Positions 17,154 through 26,330 of a stretch of 64,000 nucleotides of DNA are shown here, piece after piece. The notes below the pieces were generated by a model that did not search any database, was not told the origin of the DNA, and saw only the letters and a program-made list of their open reading frames with translations. The stretch lies in NCBI GenBank assembly GCA_013138865.1, contig WTBY01000037.1, positions 1-64,000 of the forward strand, in the 5' to 3' direction. The number at the start of each line of letters is the position of its first letter. Position 1 is the stretch's first letter. This DNA is from Helicobacteraceae bacterium. GTDB lineage: Bacteria; Campylobacterota; Campylobacteria; Campylobacterales; Sulfurimonadaceae. The position numbers and the translations under genes are program-made.

Positions 17154-18062
17154 ATGAAAAAACTATTTTTACTACTTCTACTTACATTCACTCTCTCAGC
17201 AAAAACTATTACTCCAAATGAGGTTTATTCTCAAGTTTCACTGATTACAGACGAGGTCCACTTTTTACTGAATTATTATGGTATCAAGCATGAAAATAAC
17301 GAGATCACAAAACATCCAAAAGTCTCTACAAAACTTAAACCTAGAAACGTATGGCAAATGACTTATGAAATAATGGTTAAAATAAATATATTGAGAGAAG
17401 ATAATAACCTTCCAGTTATTGAGCCTGTAAATATGTCACCTGTACTCAACTTAAACCCTGATATGGTTTATGAACAGACACAAAGAATTTTAACAGAGTT
17501 GAAAATTTTTGAGATTAGAATGGGAATAAAAGCACCGATTTTTGAAAAAAAAATATTCAAGGGTAAAACTTCCTTAGATGTTTATAATGCACTTACTCAT
17601 GTTTCTAAAAATATTGATGAGCTAAATAAAGGTACTGTTACTCCATCATTCGTATTTGCTGAACAGATGAGAGTATATGAAGACATAACACTACTGCTAG
17701 AGCGTCTTAAGATAGAAGATAAAAGTATTCCAAGCGCTAAGAAACTGGGTTCTGTTCCAGAAAATGCTTTTGATGAGTCTCTAAAACTTTTGGAGAAGAT
17801 CAAACAACTTCAAATTATCTCTGGAATAAATTTTGTAGATTTTTCAGAGTTTAAAAAAGGTAACGAATCTCCAAGTGATGTTTTTACAATTACTCAAATG
17901 ATTTTAGCAGAACTTCAGACATTAAAGGCGTATGTTGGTGAAGACACCATTACAAAAGCTGCAATAAGGTACAACACTAAAACACCTTCAGAAGTTCGTC
18001 AGCTTGTTAGTTGGAATCTTAGAAAACTAAACCTAATTCACTCTTTAAATAAAGGTAACTAA
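17154..18062 (+). CDS. exported protein built of about eight 38-residue repeats
   Basis: This 302-residue protein starts with a signal peptide (residues 1-16, cleavage likely after LSA). The rest is a series of degenerate units beginning P-x-x-[VA]-[FYW] and followed by an amphipathic helix with the pattern I-L-x-E-L-x3-L. Units start near residues 21, 63, 102, 139, 164, 202, 240 and 278, so most are 37-42 long. No known domain is recognised. It precedes the hybrid kinase by one base, making it a likely periplasmic binding or scaffold partner for the kinase sensor domain. Confidence 0.7.
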   Translation: MKKLFLLLLLTFTLSAKTITPNEVYSQVSLITDEVHFLLNYYGIKHENNEITKHPKVSTKLKPRNVWQMTYEIMVKINILREDNNLPVIEPVNMSPVLNLNPDMVYEQTQRILTELKIFEIRMGIKAPIFEKKIFKGKTSLDVYNALTHVSKNIDELNKGTVTPSFVFAEQMRVYEDITLLLERLKIEDKSIPSAKKLGSVPENAFDESLKLLEKIKQLQIISGINFVDFSEFKKGNESPSDVFTITQMILAELQTLKAYVGEDTITKAAIRYNTKTPSEVRQLVSWNLRKLNLIHSLNKGN

Positions 18063-18063
18063 C

Positions 18064-21000
18064 ATGAATCTATCTGTTAAAAATAAAATATTTTCTATCT
18101 TTGTCATTACAACTATTATCTCTATTAGTGCTATTGGTTGGTTTGGTTTTAGTAGTGCTAAAGATGCCTATATAGACTCTGCACTATCTATAAATCAAGG
18201 TGAAACTAAAGCTCTAGCAAATGAGATCAAAGGTGTTTTAGGAACCATACCTGAAGATGTACTCTATAATGCAAATTTCTATGCACTAGAAAAACTCTTA
18301 GTTTGGGAAGACTTAGAAGATAAGAAAAAAATACAAAAATGGAAAAATATCTATATTTCAAGTCTAAAAGACTATGTACTAAATAAACAACTTTACTACC
18401 AAATTAGAGTTTTAGATAATAAAGGTAATGAGAAAATACTTCTTAAGTATAACGAAAAGTCAGGTACTATCATAGATACTCCAAAAAACAGACTCCAAAA
18501 TAAGTCTCATATAAACTATTTTTTAGAAGCGAAAAAACTAAAAAAAGGGAAATTCTATATATCACCAATGACTTTAAATATAGAAAATGGTGTAATAGAA
18601 AAACCTTATGTCCCAGTTATCAGATACTCTACTCCTATAATAGATCAAAATGGTGAGTTTAAAGGTGTGATTGTACTTAACTTTAACGCAACATATATTT
18701 TAAATGAGATCGCAACTGCAAAAGCTATTGATGACACAAGAGAGGTACAAAAGTACTACCTTGTAAATGAGCAAGGTTACTATTTATTTATAGGTGACAA
18801 AAGTAAGAGGTGGGGCTTACAATTGGGTCATGATTACTCTTTTACAAGAGACTATCCTGGTATTTTAGAAAAGTTTAAAGATAAAGATCAGACTACCTTT
18901 ATAAAAAATGGAAGAATTTTTTCTATGGATAAAATATACCCTAATAAGGCAGATAACCAGTATAGGTTTTGGTACTTGGTTACTGAAATTGATGAGCAAG
19001 TAGCATTTTCATCGTTAGAGACTTTTATAAATATCTTTTTTATAATTCTTATATTTGTTCTATTTTTTAGTCTACTAACTACAAACTGGTATATTTCAAA
19101 AATTATAACTCCTTTAGAAAAAGTAACCTCTCAACTAAAAGCTCTCTCAAGAGGTGAAATAAAAAAAGAAGAAATTACTTATAGTGCTAATGATGAAGTA
19201 GGTGAGATTGTAAGTTATACTACTATTTTAGTTGATGCTATTGAGACTACAATACAGCAAGCTAGATTAGTGGCTAATGGAGACTTTTCAAAAGAGATAA
19301 ACCTTCTTAGCAAAAACGACCAACTAGGTCTCTCTATTCAAGATATGACAAAGAGACTAAAAGAGATAACAGAGCTCTCAAGCTCACTCTCAAATGGTAA
19401 TTATGATGTAAATGTTATAGTTAAAGGCAGTAGTGATCATTTAGGTATTGCACTTAAAGATATGGTTACATACCTAAAGACTATAACTGAACTTACTGAG
19501 TCTATAGCTCTAGGTGATCTAAATGTTATGTATAAAGCTAAGGGCGAGCAAGATCGTTTAGGTCTTGCTATACTTCAAATGACAAGCTACCTAAGAAGTA
19601 TATTGAAGCAGGCTAACTCTATTTCTAAAAATGACTTTAGTGGCTCTATTGAAGCAAGAAGTAAAGATGATGAGTTAGGTATAGCACTTATTACAATGAC
19701 AGATATTTTAAGAGACTCAGCAATAAAAAATAAAAATGAGATCTATTTTAGTGAAGGAATAGCTACATTTAGTGACAGCTTGAGTGGAATTAGTGAGACT
19801 AGTAAATTAGCAAAAGAGGCAATCACAATGGCATGTCGTTATATAGATGCAAGTAGTGGTGCTATATATATCTATAACAAAGATAATGCCGAGTTAAACC
19901 TTATAGCTTCTTATGCGTATACTTCTCGTGATGCACTTTCCAATATTTTCAAACTTGGAGAGGGTGTTGTTGGACAAGTTGCACTAGAGAAAGAGCCTAT
20001 ACTTCTTAAAAATATAAAAGATGATGAGTATAAAATTCAGAGTGCTACCACAGTTGCATCTGCTAAAGAGGTCTACACTTTTCCTCTAATAATTGAGGGT
20101 GAACTATTTGGTGTAGCTGAAGTGATGAGTTTTGAAAGCTTTAGTGATATTCAAAAAGATTACTTAGCTAAAGCTGCTAGCATTTTTTCAACAGCACTTC
20201 ATACCACAAGTCAAAATGCACAAATAAAAGTACTTCTTGAAAAATCTCAACAAGCATTTGAAGAGCTACAGGTTCAAAGTGAAGAGCTACAAGAGTCAAA
20301 CGTTCAAATGGAAGAGCAACAACAACAGCTGACTATTCAGTCTAAAGAACTTACAGACAAAAATAATACACTAGCAAACGCAAAAAAAGAGATCGATAAA
20401 CGTGCTGAAGATTTTGAACGTGCATCTACTTATAAAAGTGAGTTTTTAGCAAACATGAGTCATGAGTTAAGAACACCACTTAACTCGATCATACTACTCT
20501 CTAAACTCCTAACACAAAACCAAAATAACACTCTAAATGAGAAAGATGTAGAAAAAAGTAGTGTTATTCATAAAGCAGGAAACGATCTACTTCTTCTTAT
20601 AAATGATATTTTAGACTTAACAAAAATAGAGTCAGGAAATATGGAGCTACTAAGTGAAGAGATAAATACAAAAGAGCTTTGTGAAGATATGAAAGGACTC
20701 TTTAACGCTTTAGCTGATGAGAAGAAAATAGAGTTTATTATTAATGACTCGTTTAAGTCAGCTTTTGTAACAGACAAAACAAAAATAGCACAAGTTCTTA
20801 AAAACTTACTAAGTAACTCCTTTAAATTTACAAAAAAGGGTTCAATTACACTCTCTATTATTAAAGAGAAGAGCAATCTACTCATAAGTGTAAAAGATAC
20901 GGGTATAGGTATACCAAATGACAAACTAGAGTATATCTTCGATGCATTTAAACAAGTAGATGGATCTATTAGTCGTGAGTTTGGTGGAACTGGCTTGGGT

Positions 21001-21594
21001 CTGTCTATTACTAAAACTATAGTTGATCTTATGGGTGGTAGAATTGATCTTAGCTCTACATTTGGAGAGGGCACTATTTTTAAAATAACACTTCCACTTG
21101 AAAATAATAGCGTAATTGAAAAAGCTATAAAAGAAGAAATTCAAGAGTTTAACCTTCAAGCAAACAGTCCAGAAGTAGCAATTATCTTAGACGAAGATGA
21201 CACTATATTTAACAACAAAGTGTTGAGCGAAAAAAATATTCTTATAGTTGATGATGATAGTAGAAATATATTTACATTAACGTCTATACTAGAGAGTATG
21301 GACGCTGATGTTTATAGTGCTTTTAATGGTCAAGAGGCCATTGATACTCTTGAAGAAGGTACGCATATAGACCTAATATTAATGGATATTATGATGCCTG
21401 TTATGGATGGACTAAAAGCTATAGAGTCAATTAAAGCTAACAAAAAGTTTAAAGATATCCCTATAATAGCTATAACAGCTAAAACAATGCCTGAAGATAA
21501 ACAAGCATGTTTAGATGCTGGAGCTGATGAGTATTTATCTAAACCTTTAGAGCATCAAGCGTTAATATCAACAATAAAAGCCTGGGTAAAATAG
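18064..21594 (+). CDS. hybrid histidine kinase with five HAMP units, GAF and receiver
   Basis: This 1176-residue membrane protein has a first transmembrane helix (about 9-30), a periplasmic dCache-like sensor (about 35-310), a second helix (322-341), then five consecutive HAMP-like units starting near 345, 400, 440, 478 and 518. A GAF domain (about 575-715), a Gln/Glu-rich coiled coil (720-785), HisKA with His800 in NMSHELRTPLN, HATPase_c (with DTGIGIP and GGTGLGLSI) and a C-terminal receiver (Asp1108 in LMDIMMPVMDG) follow. It should autophosphorylate and pass phosphate to its own receiver or to the downstream response regulators. Confidence 0.88.
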   Translation: MNLSVKNKIFSIFVITTIISISAIGWFGFSSAKDAYIDSALSINQGETKALANEIKGVLGTIPEDVLYNANFYALEKLLVWEDLEDKKKIQKWKNIYISSLKDYVLNKQLYYQIRVLDNKGNEKILLKYNEKSGTIIDTPKNRLQNKSHINYFLEAKKLKKGKFYISPMTLNIENGVIEKPYVPVIRYSTPIIDQNGEFKGVIVLNFNATYILNEIATAKAIDDTREVQKYYLVNEQGYYLFIGDKSKRWGLQLGHDYSFTRDYPGILEKFKDKDQTTFIKNGRIFSMDKIYPNKADNQYRFWYLVTEIDEQVAFSSLETFINIFFIILIFVLFFSLLTTNWYISKIITPLEKVTSQLKALSRGEIKKEEITYSANDEVGEIVSYTTILVDAIETTIQQARLVANGDFSKEINLLSKNDQLGLSIQDMTKRLKEITELSSSLSNGNYDVNVIVKGSSDHLGIALKDMVTYLKTITELTESIALGDLNVMYKAKGEQDRLGLAILQMTSYLRSILKQANSISKNDFSGSIEARSKDDELGIALITMTDILRDSAIKNKNEIYFSEGIATFSDSLSGISETSKLAKEAITMACRYIDASSGAIYIYNKDNAELNLIASYAYTSRDALSNIFKLGEGVVGQVALEKEPILLKNIKDDEYKIQSATTVASAKEVYTFPLIIEGELFGVAEVMSFESFSDIQKDYLAKAASIFSTALHTTSQNAQIKVLLEKSQQAFEELQVQSEELQESNVQMEEQQQQLTIQSKELTDKNNTLANAKKEIDKRAEDFERASTYKSEFLANMSHELRTPLNSIILLSKLLTQNQNNTLNEKDVEKSSVIHKAGNDLLLLINDILDLTKIESGNMELLSEEINTKELCEDMKGLFNALADEKKIEFIINDSFKSAFVTDKTKIAQVLKNLLSNSFKFTKKGSITLSIIKEKSNLLISVKDTGIGIPNDKLEYIFDAFKQVDGSISREFGGTGLGLSITKTIVDLMGGRIDLSSTFGEGTIFKITLPLENNSVIEKAIKEEIQEFNLQANSPEVAIILDEDDTIFNNKVLSEKNILIVDDDSRNIFTLTSILESMDADVYSAFNGQEAIDTLEEGTHIDLILMDIMMPVMDGLKAIESIKANKKFKDIPIIAITAKTMPEDKQACLDAGADEYLSKPLEHQALISTIKAWVK

Positions 21595-23262
21595 TTGTTA
21601 AAATTTTTTGAAAAAGATCATCGTTGCGAAGTTTTAATAGATCCACCATTTAAAAGTGAAGATATTAAAACGCTCTCAACACTATTTTCAAAAAACTATA
21701 TCTCGTGGAGTATAATATTTGGTAGAATTTATAGTGTTGAAGTAGAGTTAATTCAACTTCTTTATAAAGAAATTATAAAAAATAAAAAGAGTATATCGCT
21801 TACAACACATAAATATAAGTTAAATCGTTATTTTCATCAACTGGGTTTTACAACAACTTTTAACTCACTTATAAAAGATGATGTAATTGATGTTGAAAGT
21901 GTAGAAGTTGTTCTTATTGGTGGAAGTGCTGATTCATCTTCAAAAGTTATGGAGATCATAAAAAATTGCTCATTTAAAAACTTAACACTTATTATTGTTC
22001 AACATGTAGAGGCGAATGGAACTCAACTGTTTGATAAAGTTTTACAAGAGTACACATCAACAAAAGTTACTTACGCAAAAGATGGTGAAGAAATTAAAAA
22101 GTCAAGAATCTATATAGCACCACACAATACTCATTTAAAAGTAATCGATGGTTATTTTGCACTAAGCTTTGAAAAGAAATATAACTTTTCTCGGCCATCT
22201 ATCTCGATCTCTTATGACTCTTTTTCTACATACTATAAAGATAAGCTAGTAGTTATTCAAGAGTGTGGTTACTCTAATGATGGAGTAGATAAGCTAAAAC
22301 TTTTAAAAAAGAATAAAACAAAAATAATTATTCAAGATAAGTGTGAATGTGAAGCGAAACCTATGGTACTCAATGCACTTGAATTAAATTTAGAAGACTA
22401 CATTTTCAACATTCAAAATATAGTCTCTTTTATAAACTTTTTAGATTTGCAAAACTCAGACTCTCATAAAGTAGAATATCTGCTAGATATGATCTTAAAA
22501 ATATATGGTTATGATTTTAGGCTATATCAACGAAGTATGATTGAGAGACGTTTAAAAATTTTTATGCTCAAACATGATATACACACTATTAAGAATGCTG
22601 TAGGTGTAATTCTTTTTAATAGAAGTGCCTTTAAAGGGTTTTTTTTAGAGGCCTCTATCAATGTAACTGAGCTCTTTAGAGATACCTTATCTTTTAGTTC
22701 TATTGTAGATCTTTTAAAACACAGTTGTACAAAAAAACAATCTTTAAAAATATGGAGTGCTGGTTGTAGTAGCGGTGAAGAGGCCTATTCAATAGGAATT
22801 ATCCTTAAATCTTTAGCAATACTAGACAAGTCTATAATTTATGCTACTGACTTTAATAGTGTAATTTTAGAAGAGGCAAAAAATGCTATCTATTCTCAAG
22901 AAAGTTACAAGGTTGCAAAAAATAACTTTAATGAAATTAATCTAGATGATAACTTAGATAACTACATTACACAAAACAGTAACTTTATAACTATTAATGA
23001 GAATATTCGTAAAAAAGTACTGTTTTTTCAACACAACTTAGCTACGGATAGCTCTTTTAATGAATTTGATATTATAATATGTAAGAATGTTATAATATAT
23101 TTTGATAATACTTTACAAAACAGAGTATTCCAACTATTTTATGACTCACTTAAATTTGGTGGTTTTTTGGTATTAGGTGAATCTGAGGCAATACAAGAAG
23201 AGTTTACAAATAAATTTATTAAATGTACTGACAAGTGTAAAATATTTAAGAAAGTTGCATAA
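21595..23262 (+). CDS. CheB-CheR fusion without receiver
   Basis: This 555-residue protein starts with TTG immediately after the kinase stop. Residues 1-95 form a small STAS-like region. Residues 104-285 are a CheB methylesterase domain with the catalytic Ser111 (IGGSADS), His137 (VQHVEAN) and Asp229 (GYSNDGVDKL) all present. Residues 290-555 are a CheR methyltransferase with SINVTELFRD, the SAM motif AGCSSGEEAYSI and CKNVIIYF. The usual CheB receiver is missing. The fusion could set and remove a methyl mark on the same target, perhaps the HAMP-rich kinase or a receptor elsewhere. Confidence 0.85.
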   Translation: MLKFFEKDHRCEVLIDPPFKSEDIKTLSTLFSKNYISWSIIFGRIYSVEVELIQLLYKEIIKNKKSISLTTHKYKLNRYFHQLGFTTTFNSLIKDDVIDVESVEVVLIGGSADSSSKVMEIIKNCSFKNLTLIIVQHVEANGTQLFDKVLQEYTSTKVTYAKDGEEIKKSRIYIAPHNTHLKVIDGYFALSFEKKYNFSRPSISISYDSFSTYYKDKLVVIQECGYSNDGVDKLKLLKKNKTKIIIQDKCECEAKPMVLNALELNLEDYIFNIQNIVSFINFLDLQNSDSHKVEYLLDMILKIYGYDFRLYQRSMIERRLKIFMLKHDIHTIKNAVGVILFNRSAFKGFFLEASINVTELFRDTLSFSSIVDLLKHSCTKKQSLKIWSAGCSSGEEAYSIGIILKSLAILDKSIIYATDFNSVILEEAKNAIYSQESYKVAKNNFNEINLDDNLDNYITQNSNFITINENIRKKVLFFQHNLATDSSFNEFDIIICKNVIIYFDNTLQNRVFQLFYDSLKFGGFLVLGESEAIQEEFTNKFIKCTDKCKIFKKVA

Positions 23263-24528
23263 ATGAAACAAAATATACTTTGTGTAGATGATATACAGAC
23301 AAACCTTTTTATACTTACTAGTGTTTTTGAAGAGTTTGCAGGAGATCAGTATAACCTCTTCCTTGCAACTTCTGCTATGGAGGGTTTAGATATCCTTCTT
23401 AAAGAGAAAATAGACCTCATCTTACTAGACATTATGATGCCTGAAATAGATGGCTTTGCTGCCGCTAAGATGATAAGATCAAATAAAAAGACAAAAGATA
23501 TTCCGATCATATTTGTAACTGCTAAAAAAGATGATGAATCAATAGAGATGTGTTATAAAGTCGGTGGTGATGACTATGTTAATAAGCCATTTAACTATAC
23601 TGAACTATTAGCACGTGTCTCATTTCATATACAATCAAAAGAGAAAGATGTACTTCTTAAAGAAGAGCAAGAGTATGTGCAAAGTATCTTAAATTTACAA
23701 GAAAACATGATCCTTGTAACTGATGGTAAAAAAGCAATAAATGCTAATCATGCTCTTTTAAACTTCTATAATGTAGAAACTGTAGAAGATTTTCAAAAGA
23801 CGTTAAAATGTGTCTGTTTTACTTTTATAAAAGATGATGGATTCTTTAGTCTGAACCTTTTAAAAGAAGATGATCAATGGGTTAATGAAGTTATACAACG
23901 ATCCAAAAGCGAAGATGTGGTCGTAAAAATTATAAAAGATGAAACAATAGAGGCTATATTTAACGTAAAAGCTGCAACTTTCAAAGAACAATACATAGTA
24001 ACGCTTACAGATATAACGCAAATTTCAAACCTCTCTTTAGAGTATCAACATGAAGCAAACTTTGACTCTTTAACTCAGGTATATAATAGAAATATGTTTC
24101 AACGCCTTATAAGTAAAAAAATAACTATGGCTAAAGTAGAAGCTACCTCTTTTGTTTTTATTATATTAGATATAGATTATTTTAAAAATGTTAATGATAC
24201 TCACGGTCACTTAGTAGGTGACAAAGTACTTAAACAGTTATCTGCACTTATTAAAAAACATACAAGAATAAATGATATTTTTGCTAGATGGGGCGGAGAA
24301 GAGTTTGTTTTAAGCTTTAATGTAAAACTCAAAAAGGGTCTTGAAATAGCTGAAAGTTTAAGAGTACATATTGAGAATGAAAATTTTGAAGATGTAGACC
24401 AGATCACTTGTAGTTTTGGAGTAACTGAGTTTAAAGATAATGACACACAAGACAGTCTAATAAAACGAGCTGATACAGCTCTTTATGAAGCAAAAGAGCG
24501 TGGAAGAAATATGGTTTGTCAAGCTTAA
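23263..24528 (+). CDS. response regulator diguanylate cyclase
   Basis: This 421-residue protein has an N-terminal receiver (Asp56 in LLDIMMPEIDG), a central PAS-like region (about 135-255) and a C-terminal GGDEF domain. The active-site GGEEF at 344-348 is intact, and an RxxD product-inhibition site (RIND, 335-338) lies five residues before it. It should make c-di-GMP when phosphorylated. The ATG directly follows the CheB-CheR stop. The phosphate donor is probably the hybrid kinase in the same operon. Confidence 0.9.
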   Translation: MKQNILCVDDIQTNLFILTSVFEEFAGDQYNLFLATSAMEGLDILLKEKIDLILLDIMMPEIDGFAAAKMIRSNKKTKDIPIIFVTAKKDDESIEMCYKVGGDDYVNKPFNYTELLARVSFHIQSKEKDVLLKEEQEYVQSILNLQENMILVTDGKKAINANHALLNFYNVETVEDFQKTLKCVCFTFIKDDGFFSLNLLKEDDQWVNEVIQRSKSEDVVVKIIKDETIEAIFNVKAATFKEQYIVTLTDITQISNLSLEYQHEANFDSLTQVYNRNMFQRLISKKITMAKVEATSFVFIILDIDYFKNVNDTHGHLVGDKVLKQLSALIKKHTRINDIFARWGGEEFVLSFNVKLKKGLEIAESLRVHIENENFEDVDQITCSFGVTEFKDNDTQDSLIKRADTALYEAKERGRNMVCQA

Positions 24529-26330
24529 AGTCTAAGTATACAATTCTTTGTGTTGATGATAATGCAAATAACCTTTTTACGATAAATGCTCTTTTAAGTA
24601 CCCTAGATAGTGTCAAGACTAAAGATGCTCTTGGTGCTAAAGAGGCTTTAGATATTTTACTAACTCAACATATTGATCTCATACTTTGTGACGTTCAAAT
24701 GCCAGATATTAATGGTTTTGAGTTGGCAAAGATGATCAAGTCAAATAAAAAAACTAAAGATATCCCTATAATTTTTGTAACGGCTGTTTTTAAAAGTGAA
24801 GAGTTTATAAAACAGGGCTTTCAACTTGGTGCGGTTGATTATATAACAAAACCTATAGATGACAACCAACTTCTTAATAAGCTAAATCTCTATCTTAAAA
24901 TATTTACAGAAAAAGAAAAAGTTTTACAGAGTGAAAAAAGACTCTTTGATATAGCTCAAAGTATTGGTAATGGTATCTATACACTAGATACTGATTACAA
25001 TACAACATTTATCAATAACGAAGCACTAACTCTTCTTGGTTTTAAAGAGAGTGAACTACTAGGTAAATGTATTCATGATTATATTCACTATAAAGATATC
25101 AACAATAACCAAATTTTGTCTAAAGATTGTTGTGTTCACCAATCGATGTTAGCTAACAATATCTGTAGAAACGAAAATGAGTACTTAGTAAAAAAGGATG
25201 GTACTTTTTTACCTGTTTCGATAGTTACTACACCTCTTAGTATAAGCAATGAGGTAGTAGGGACTGTTGCTGTTTTTACAGATAAGTCAAATCAAAATAA
25301 AATAAGTCTGCTTGAACATGAAAAGCTTAAAAATCAAGAGCAGATGATTCACTCTATGATCGACATGATCGAATCACGTGACTCTTACACAGCGGGACAT
25401 ACCAAAAGAGTTGCATACTACTGTAAGCTCATAGCACAAGAGATGAATTTTAGTAATAATGATGTTGAGCTATTACAAAATGCTGCTTGGTTACATGACA
25501 TAGGTAAAATATCTACACCTGACAGTGTTCTTTTGAAACCTGGTAATTTAGACAAGAGAGAGTATTCCCTAATTCAAGAACATCTAAATTCTGGTTTTAC
25601 TATGTTAAATAGTATCGATCAGTATAAAGAGATTGCATCGGTTATGAGAGAACATCATGAAAAGTATGATGGCTCAGGTTATCCAAGAGGACTAATAGGT
25701 GATGAAATAAAACCTTTAAGTAAGATCATGATTGTAGCAGATGCTTTTGATGCTATGACAACTAACAGAGTCTACAAGCCAAAAAAGAGTATTGAGGTTG
25801 CACTAAAAGAGCTAGAGAGTTTAAGTGCTATTCACTTTCACCCTAATGTAGTTCATGCAGCAAAAAAAGTTCTAAAAAATATAAATATAGATGAAGAGAT
25901 CTCTCAACTACCAACGACAGAAATAGAAGAACAAAGGTTCGCATATTTTTACAAAGATCGTTTAACAAACCTGTTTATTATAGACTATATGGAGCTTATA
26001 CTACGCTACTACGTAAAAACAAAAGATATTTATACTTATGACATTAAGTTACACCACTTTAGTGCCTACAACAAAAAGTTTGGTTGGAAGAGTGGCGATT
26101 GCTACTTAATAAACTTTTCTGAATTTTTAAATAACATAGATAAAAAAAGTGTTGTTTTTAGAGTTGAAGGTGATGACTTTATGATCTTGAGTGAAAGTAA
26201 AATAGAGAGTATAGAGAGTAAAATTAAAGAGTACATTAATAATACAGAAAAAACTTTAGCGTGCTCCGTTGAAGAGAAGTTTATCGAAGATGTTCATAAC
26301 AACATGAAATCACTTTTGCAGATAGTTTAA
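24516..26330 (+). CDS. response regulator with PAS, HD-GYP and degenerate GGDEF
   Basis: This 604-residue protein starts with TTG at 24516, inside the end of the previous gene (13-base overlap). It holds a receiver (Asp59 in LCDVQMPDING), a PAS domain (about 140-260), and an HD-GYP domain with LHDIGK (326-331) and HHEKYDGSGYP (380-390) intact, predicted to hydrolyse c-di-GMP. Residues 455-600 look like a GGDEF domain whose signature has become EGDDF, so probably inactive. It would oppose the cyclase encoded just upstream. Confidence 0.87.
   Translation: MSSLKSKYTILCVDDNANNLFTINALLSTLDSVKTKDALGAKEALDILLTQHIDLILCDVQMPDINGFELAKMIKSNKKTKDIPIIFVTAVFKSEEFIKQGFQLGAVDYITKPIDDNQLLNKLNLYLKIFTEKEKVLQSEKRLFDIAQSIGNGIYTLDTDYNTTFINNEALTLLGFKESELLGKCIHDYIHYKDINNNQILSKDCCVHQSMLANNICRNENEYLVKKDGTFLPVSIVTTPLSISNEVVGTVAVFTDKSNQNKISLLEHEKLKNQEQMIHSMIDMIESRDSYTAGHTKRVAYYCKLIAQEMNFSNNDVELLQNAAWLHDIGKISTPDSVLLKPGNLDKREYSLIQEHLNSGFTMLNSIDQYKEIASVMREHHEKYDGSGYPRGLIGDEIKPLSKIMIVADAFDAMTTNRVYKPKKSIEVALKELESLSAIHFHPNVVHAAKKVLKNINIDEEISQLPTTEIEEQRFAYFYKDRLTNLFIIDYMELILRYYVKTKDIYTYDIKLHHFSAYNKKFGWKSGDCYLINFSEFLNNIDKKSVVFRVEGDDFMILSESKIESIESKIKEYINNTEKTLACSVEEKFIEDVHNNMKSLLQIV

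Follow-up and report, generated by a model that had tools for sequence, protein, structure and literature searches.

A receiverless STAS-CheB-CheR protein as a probable adaptation enzyme of its upstream hybrid histidine kinase

Introduction

Methylation-based adaptation is known for chemoreceptors, and in its canonical form the methylesterase CheB and the methyltransferase CheR are separate proteins that act on MCPs. Canonical CheB also carries a receiver, as in the solved structures 1a2o and 6ymz. CheR1 of Pseudomonas putida is reportedly linked to biofilm, going by the title of a study.

Among the closest described systems is the cfcABCDE operon of P. putida. There the diguanylate cyclase CfcR requires CfcA, a CHASE3/GAF hybrid kinase, while participation of the CheB/CheR-type proteins CfcB and CfcC in chemotaxis is reported to be excluded (PMC4951495, PMC6849547). 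A further point of reference is CheS of Sinorhizobium meliloti, a STAS-only protein that binds the kinase CheA (PMC12654446).

Here we analyze a stretch of 64,000 nucleotides (contig WTBY01000037.1, positions 1 to 64,000, of the Helicobacteraceae bacterium assembly GCA_013138865.1; hereafter the window), in which a fused CheB-CheR gene directly follows the gene of a hybrid histidine kinase. We propose that the encoded enzyme probably adapts this kinase, and not chemoreceptors.

Results

Domain architecture and catalytic residues

The enzyme gene (21595-23262, +) encodes 555 amino acids and has a predicted TTG start abutting the stop codon of the kinase gene, an arrangement suggesting that translation of the two is coupled. 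Pfam assigns CheB_methylest to residues 106-279 (21910-22431, +; E = 9.6e-28), CheR_N to residues 294-332 (2.4e-6) and CheR to residues 356-545 (4.8e-43), the methyltransferase spanning residues 294-545 (22474-23229, +). The predicted structures of the two parts match 1chd (TM 0.85) and 5ftw (TM 0.88), respectively, both normalized by target length. When the enzyme is aligned by phmmer with the complete CheB of Salmonella (1a2o) and positions are counted by hand, Ser111 (21925-21927, +), His137 (22003-22005, +) and Asp229 (22279-22281, +) pair with S164, H190 and D286. None of the 27 aligned family members departs from this triad, nor from R362, E396, D419 and N498 in the methyltransferase. 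Pfam matches CheR in all 27, and the CheR part has the expected all-alpha N-domain and SAM-binding domain with conserved residues. Catalytic residues and folds are shared with canonical chemotaxis CheB and CheR. A preliminary description of the locus had judged the esterase triad and the methyltransferase motifs to be intact, which these alignments confirm, and we infer that both opposing activities may reside in one chain.

A predicted STAS fold in place of the receiver

The same description had proposed that CheB lacks its receiver and begins with a STAS-like region instead. A domain search of residues 1-100 with Pfam gave nothing convincing. In scans of the 27 members, one gave a chance-level receiver match (E = 0.19), and none a STAS match at E up to 1. 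Searching a profile of the N-domain against the sequences of solved structures likewise returned three chance-level matches only (E 0.23 to 4.2). AlphaFold2, run on the 27-row alignment, yielded a mean pLDDT of 91.2 for the whole enzyme and of 91.3 for residues 1-102 alone; the N-domain was modeled separately because a structure search with the full model matched only CheB, CheR and methyltransferases. In the predicted model, residues 1-92 (21595-21870, +) follow the order beta-beta-alpha-beta-alpha-beta-alpha-beta. Their best VIA-align match is SpoIIAA (1h4y; Z 10.3, 2.3 Å over 91 residues), with more STAS proteins among the top rows and the first clearly unrelated protein at Z 7.5, and in Foldseek rows 1-11 are STAS or anti-sigma antagonist chains, with a best E of only 2.5e-3. 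By predicted fold, the N-domain is thus a STAS domain that replaces the receiver, and both parts of the earlier proposal hold. A receiver in residues 1-100 was rejected on the predicted fold, whose strand order differs; the absence of receivers from the lists of structural matches would not by itself be enough to exclude one.

Residues 1-92 share the fold of SpoIIAA/RsbS-type STAS proteins but differ from them in the lack of any Pfam STAS match among the 27 members, which marks the N-domain as a distant branch by sequence. The column equated with the SpoIIAA phospho-serine, aligned by eye to the SpoIIAA motif, holds Ile in the window enzyme and Ser or Thr in only 2 of 27 members, so a phospho-switch of the SpoIIAA type is unlikely. 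The STAS-only CheS of Sinorhizobium shares the fold type of this N-domain.

Distribution and phylogeny of the family

A scan of genome contigs yielded 36 related loci, 26 of which were aligned with the window enzyme to give the 27 members; the others (L038, L045, L056, L062, L065, L066, L067, L069, L071, L072) were omitted because the gene was cut, frame-shifted or not cleanly called. The family is conserved across Campylobacterota, Pseudomonadota, Nitrospirota and Bacteroidota, with the triad kept in every aligned member. In the CheB tree, the 27 members form a single group (100/99). In the CheR tree they group together less firmly (89/89), join CheR proteins of Pseudomonas (99/96, plus one long plasmid row), and stand apart from long CheB-CheR fusions and from the other CheR matches of the window genome. 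A plasmid search returned 101 records of weaker matches, all below 60% identity and those listed at 25-30%; of two records examined, one holds a chemotaxis cluster and the other a long CheR-family fusion. Full-text searches of one literature collection gave no match whose title or opening abstract lines describe a STAS-CheB-CheR protein or a methylated histidine-kinase coil.

Loci L047 and L050 are labeled Helicobacter cetorum, although they come from cave metagenome bins (SulCav); they fall among environmental Campylobacterota in the trees, and the label therefore looks doubtful.

The upstream kinase and gene order

Directly upstream of the enzyme gene lies its presumptive partner (18064-21594, +), a hybrid histidine kinase of 1176 amino acids with a sensor domain, HAMP, GAF, coil, HisKA, HATPase and REC. 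We assembled a set of 26 upstream ORFs from the window kinase and 25 chosen counterparts (L038, L065 and L071 among them; none from L057), in which Pfam finds HisKA in 24, HATPase_c in 25, a receiver in 24 and GAF_2 in 23. The enzyme starts -25 to +3 nt from the end of the upstream ORF in 20 of 23 measured loci, as judged from called ORF starts; wider gaps separate the two in L040 (69 nt), L051 (196 nt) and L054 (96 nt). Exceptions to the common arrangement are L051, where the adjoining ORF is not a kinase, L047, where it has HAMP and HATPase_c with no HisKA match, L054, where a PAS kinase without a coil adjoins the enzyme, and L064, where a kinase lies downstream.

Two neighboring genes may encode sensory partners. 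The first, directly upstream of the window kinase (17154-18062, +), specifies a protein of 302 amino acids that begins like a signal peptide and has no convincing Pfam match; L039 (55% identity) and L115 (50%) carry a homologue in the same position, and it is possibly an extracytoplasmic partner of the kinase sensor. The second, in L047 (3011-4201, +), encodes a Peripla_BP_6 periplasmic binding protein, immediately precedes the HAMP-HATPase ORF and the enzyme gene, and could be a ligand-sensing partner.

Downstream of the enzyme gene, the window carries genes for a REC-GGDEF response regulator with a GGEEF motif (23263-24528, +) and for a REC-PAS-HD-GYP protein with a partial GGDEF match (24516-26330, +). 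Scanning ten downstream proteins of relatives gave two with GGDEF, six of kinase type with a receiver, one transporter and one without a match, and this mixture indicates that a c-di-GMP output is not shared by the whole family.

A Glu/Gln-rich coil between GAF and HisKA

In most partner kinases, the stretch from GAF to HisKA contains repeats such as SNAQMEEQQQQLQQQSEELQQ. In the window kinase, this Glu/Gln-rich heptad coil spans residues 732-776 (20257-20391, +). Of the 24 partners scored, 23 have a combined E+Q fraction of 0.27-0.54 ahead of HisKA (L054 has 0.15), compared with 0.06-0.24 in 11 other kinases of the window genome; five further kinases there have no recognized H box and went unscored.

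Receptor methylation sites are E/Q pairs in which, as a rule, the second residue carries the modification and occupies heptad position c (PMC6829392). The window kinase places the pairs E733-E734, E740-E741 and Q754-Q755 at heptad positions b/c, with L at d, and E734, E741 and Q755 accordingly occupy the position described there, making them candidate adaptation sites. Of the small flanking residues in the motif [ASTG][ASTG]xx[EQ][EQ]xx[ASTG][ASTG] (PMC1079850), the EELQES of the window kinase keeps only part. Compared with composition shuffles, spacing of E/Q pairs by seven stood out at a value below 0.05 for 14 of the 24 partners, including the coil-less L054; it was not significant beyond composition in the window kinase (0.07) or in 28 rows of cfc-like Pseudomonas kinases (0.097-0.31), some of them from the same locus. 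A chance origin of the coil was rejected on composition and on the co-occurrence described below, the strict test of spacing by seven being mixed.

Co-occurrence of enzyme and coil

Across 298 Campylobacterota genomes, including that of the window, the enzyme (E of 1e-60 or better) is present in 9, an EEQQQQ codon pattern in 10 and both in 8 (Fisher 2.9e-13, a test that ignores relatedness). Much of this co-occurrence follows from linkage within the operon. The two genomes with the pattern alone (G028, G269) have it in no ORF of 100 aa or more, and the one genome with the enzyme alone (G317) has a neighboring kinase with EEQQQN. Among the 60 nearest genomes, which overlap the 298 in part, the enzyme is found in 8 (seven at E 6.3e-90 or better, plus a gene in G031 cut at the contig end), the pattern in 8 and both in 7 (Fisher 1.6e-7). 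Since G040 and G059 carry coil kinases on contigs without the enzyme, the link goes beyond a single operon. In 16 genomes chosen for having the enzyme, the pattern occurs in 15, counted as codon matches of which part were traced to genes. It lies about 2 kb from the enzyme in G244, G291 and G308, and matches away from the enzyme are also found in G334, G339 and G346 and likewise in other Pseudomonas genomes.

Hybrid kinases with an EEQQQQ coil are encoded in L089 (4425-8267, -), L090 (5379-8873, -) and L091 (6141-9908, +), with no enzyme gene on the stretch covered; in these genomes the enzyme gene is found on a different contig. A single enzyme may thus act on more than one kinase in a cell.

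Receiverless CheB in other arrangements

A kinase matching the GAF-to-HATPase segment of the window kinase, in many cases only from the coil on, is present in 58 of 59 Pseudomonas genomes. In all ten loci fetched, the order is kinase, CheR, CheB, and the kinase has an EE-heptad coil that reads NEELQVQQEELKTANEELEEQ or close to it; one such kinase, scanned with Pfam, has the order CHASE3-GAF-HisKA-HATPase-REC. The CheB frame leaves no room for a receiver in eight of the ten, and a longer open frame exists in the other two. From their gene order and domains, these loci appear to be orthologues of cfc. The cfcABCDE operon resembles the window system in that genes for CheR and CheB come after that of a hybrid kinase, here of CHASE3/GAF type; the cfc-like loci have the EE-heptad coil, and their CheR joins the STAS-CheB-CheR family in the tree. 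The cfc-like loci differ from the window in that CheR and CheB are separate genes and in that no STAS domain was detected in the ten.

Long CheB-CheR fusions represent a further arrangement, in which NEELQST-type heptads follow CheR (11 of 14 sequences being readable with the motif). CheB starts within the first 40 residues in ten Pfam-scanned examples, leaving no room for a receiver, and HATPase_c is present in seven of these ten; two of the three lacking it are cut or near the end of the locus. Places with two or more EELQxxxEEL codon matches in the 298 genomes have CheB and CheR in one ORF in 15 of 16 cases, the sixteenth being a Lys-rich coil with no Pfam match; for single EELQ heptad matches, 30 loci were fetched. 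Like the window enzyme, the long fusions combine CheB and CheR in one chain with a receiverless CheB near the N-terminus; unlike it, they have no STAS domain, carry the coil, PAS and (in the seven) HATPase in the same chain, and form a separate group in both the CheB and the CheR tree. A receiverless CheB is by itself therefore not special, as it occurs in these fusions and in the Pseudomonas operons too; it is the STAS domain that sets the family apart.

The likely substrate

Because its Glu/Gln-rich coil goes together with CheB and CheR in three arrangements, the neighboring hybrid kinase is the likely substrate. The reading that we favor, with more confidence than doubt, is that of an adaptation enzyme, complete in itself, that acts on the E/Q coil of the adjoining hybrid histidine kinase, with the STAS domain for docking or as a lid and with c-di-GMP as output.

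The E/Q coil might instead be merely a stiff signaling helix, with the enzyme modifying some other site, for example a receiver, in the kinase or the regulator. E/Q-rich coils are indeed common, the spacing test is significant in only some kinases, and in Salmonella, methylation of the response regulator PhoP by CheR has been reported (PMC8546571). We nevertheless regard this alternative as unlikely, given that EE-heptad coils accompany CheB and CheR in three separate arrangements and that the 11 scored other kinases of the window genome have no comparable coil.

It is rather improbable, too, that the protein is a chemotaxis adaptation enzyme acting on MCPs and stands beside the kinase incidentally. 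Potential substrates of this kind exist: the MCP signal is matched 22 times in the window genome, and MCPs occur in 28 of the 30 genomes that carry the enzyme; against this, the remaining two (G047, which is 97% complete, and G334) have the enzyme and no MCP match, making an MCP substrate unlikely there. Moreover, further CheB- and CheR-like genes lie at three places in the window genome, the enzyme abuts a kinase in most measured loci, and the window contains no MCP match, the nearest on the contig lying at 127907.

A working CheR joined to a catalytically dead or scaffolding CheB half, giving one-way modification, seems very unlikely: the receiver is gone and Salmonella CheB residues M283 and T281 are replaced family-wide (by Y226 and C224, the Tyr and Cys being invariant in 27 of 27), but the CheB triad is unchanged in every aligned member over several phyla.

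Discussion

If the adjoining kinase is the substrate, the CheR half would methylate glutamates of the coil that joins GAF to HisKA, and the CheB half would demethylate them and deamidate coil glutamines. Such modification may tune the coupling between sensor and kinase core, much as methylation tunes a chemoreceptor. Lacking a receiver, CheB would not be switched by phosphorylation, and the balance of methylation may instead follow the conformation of the coil; it is fair to infer, in line with the preliminary description, that adaptation is under a different control here. The STAS domain would most likely dock the enzyme on the kinase, by comparison with the binding of CheS to CheA (PMC12654446), the alternative being a lid over the CheB site. 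In the window, the tuned phosphorelay could then drive the c-di-GMP enzymes encoded downstream.

More broadly, reversible glutamate methylation may be a general means of adaptation for ordinary hybrid sensor kinases, mediated by a portable E/Q-heptad coil and by receiverless CheB with CheR in several arrangements; STAS-CheB-CheR would be the version that works in trans from a single chain and could attend to several kinases per cell. On this wider proposal we are evenly divided. If it is true for two-component kinases, many of them would acquire a memory along with a set point that can be adjusted, and the substrates of CheB/CheR pairs outside chemotaxis, such as that of P. putida CheR1, would become directly testable. 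The receiverless fused CheB-CheR would also offer a natural example of adaptation governed by the shape of the substrate alone.
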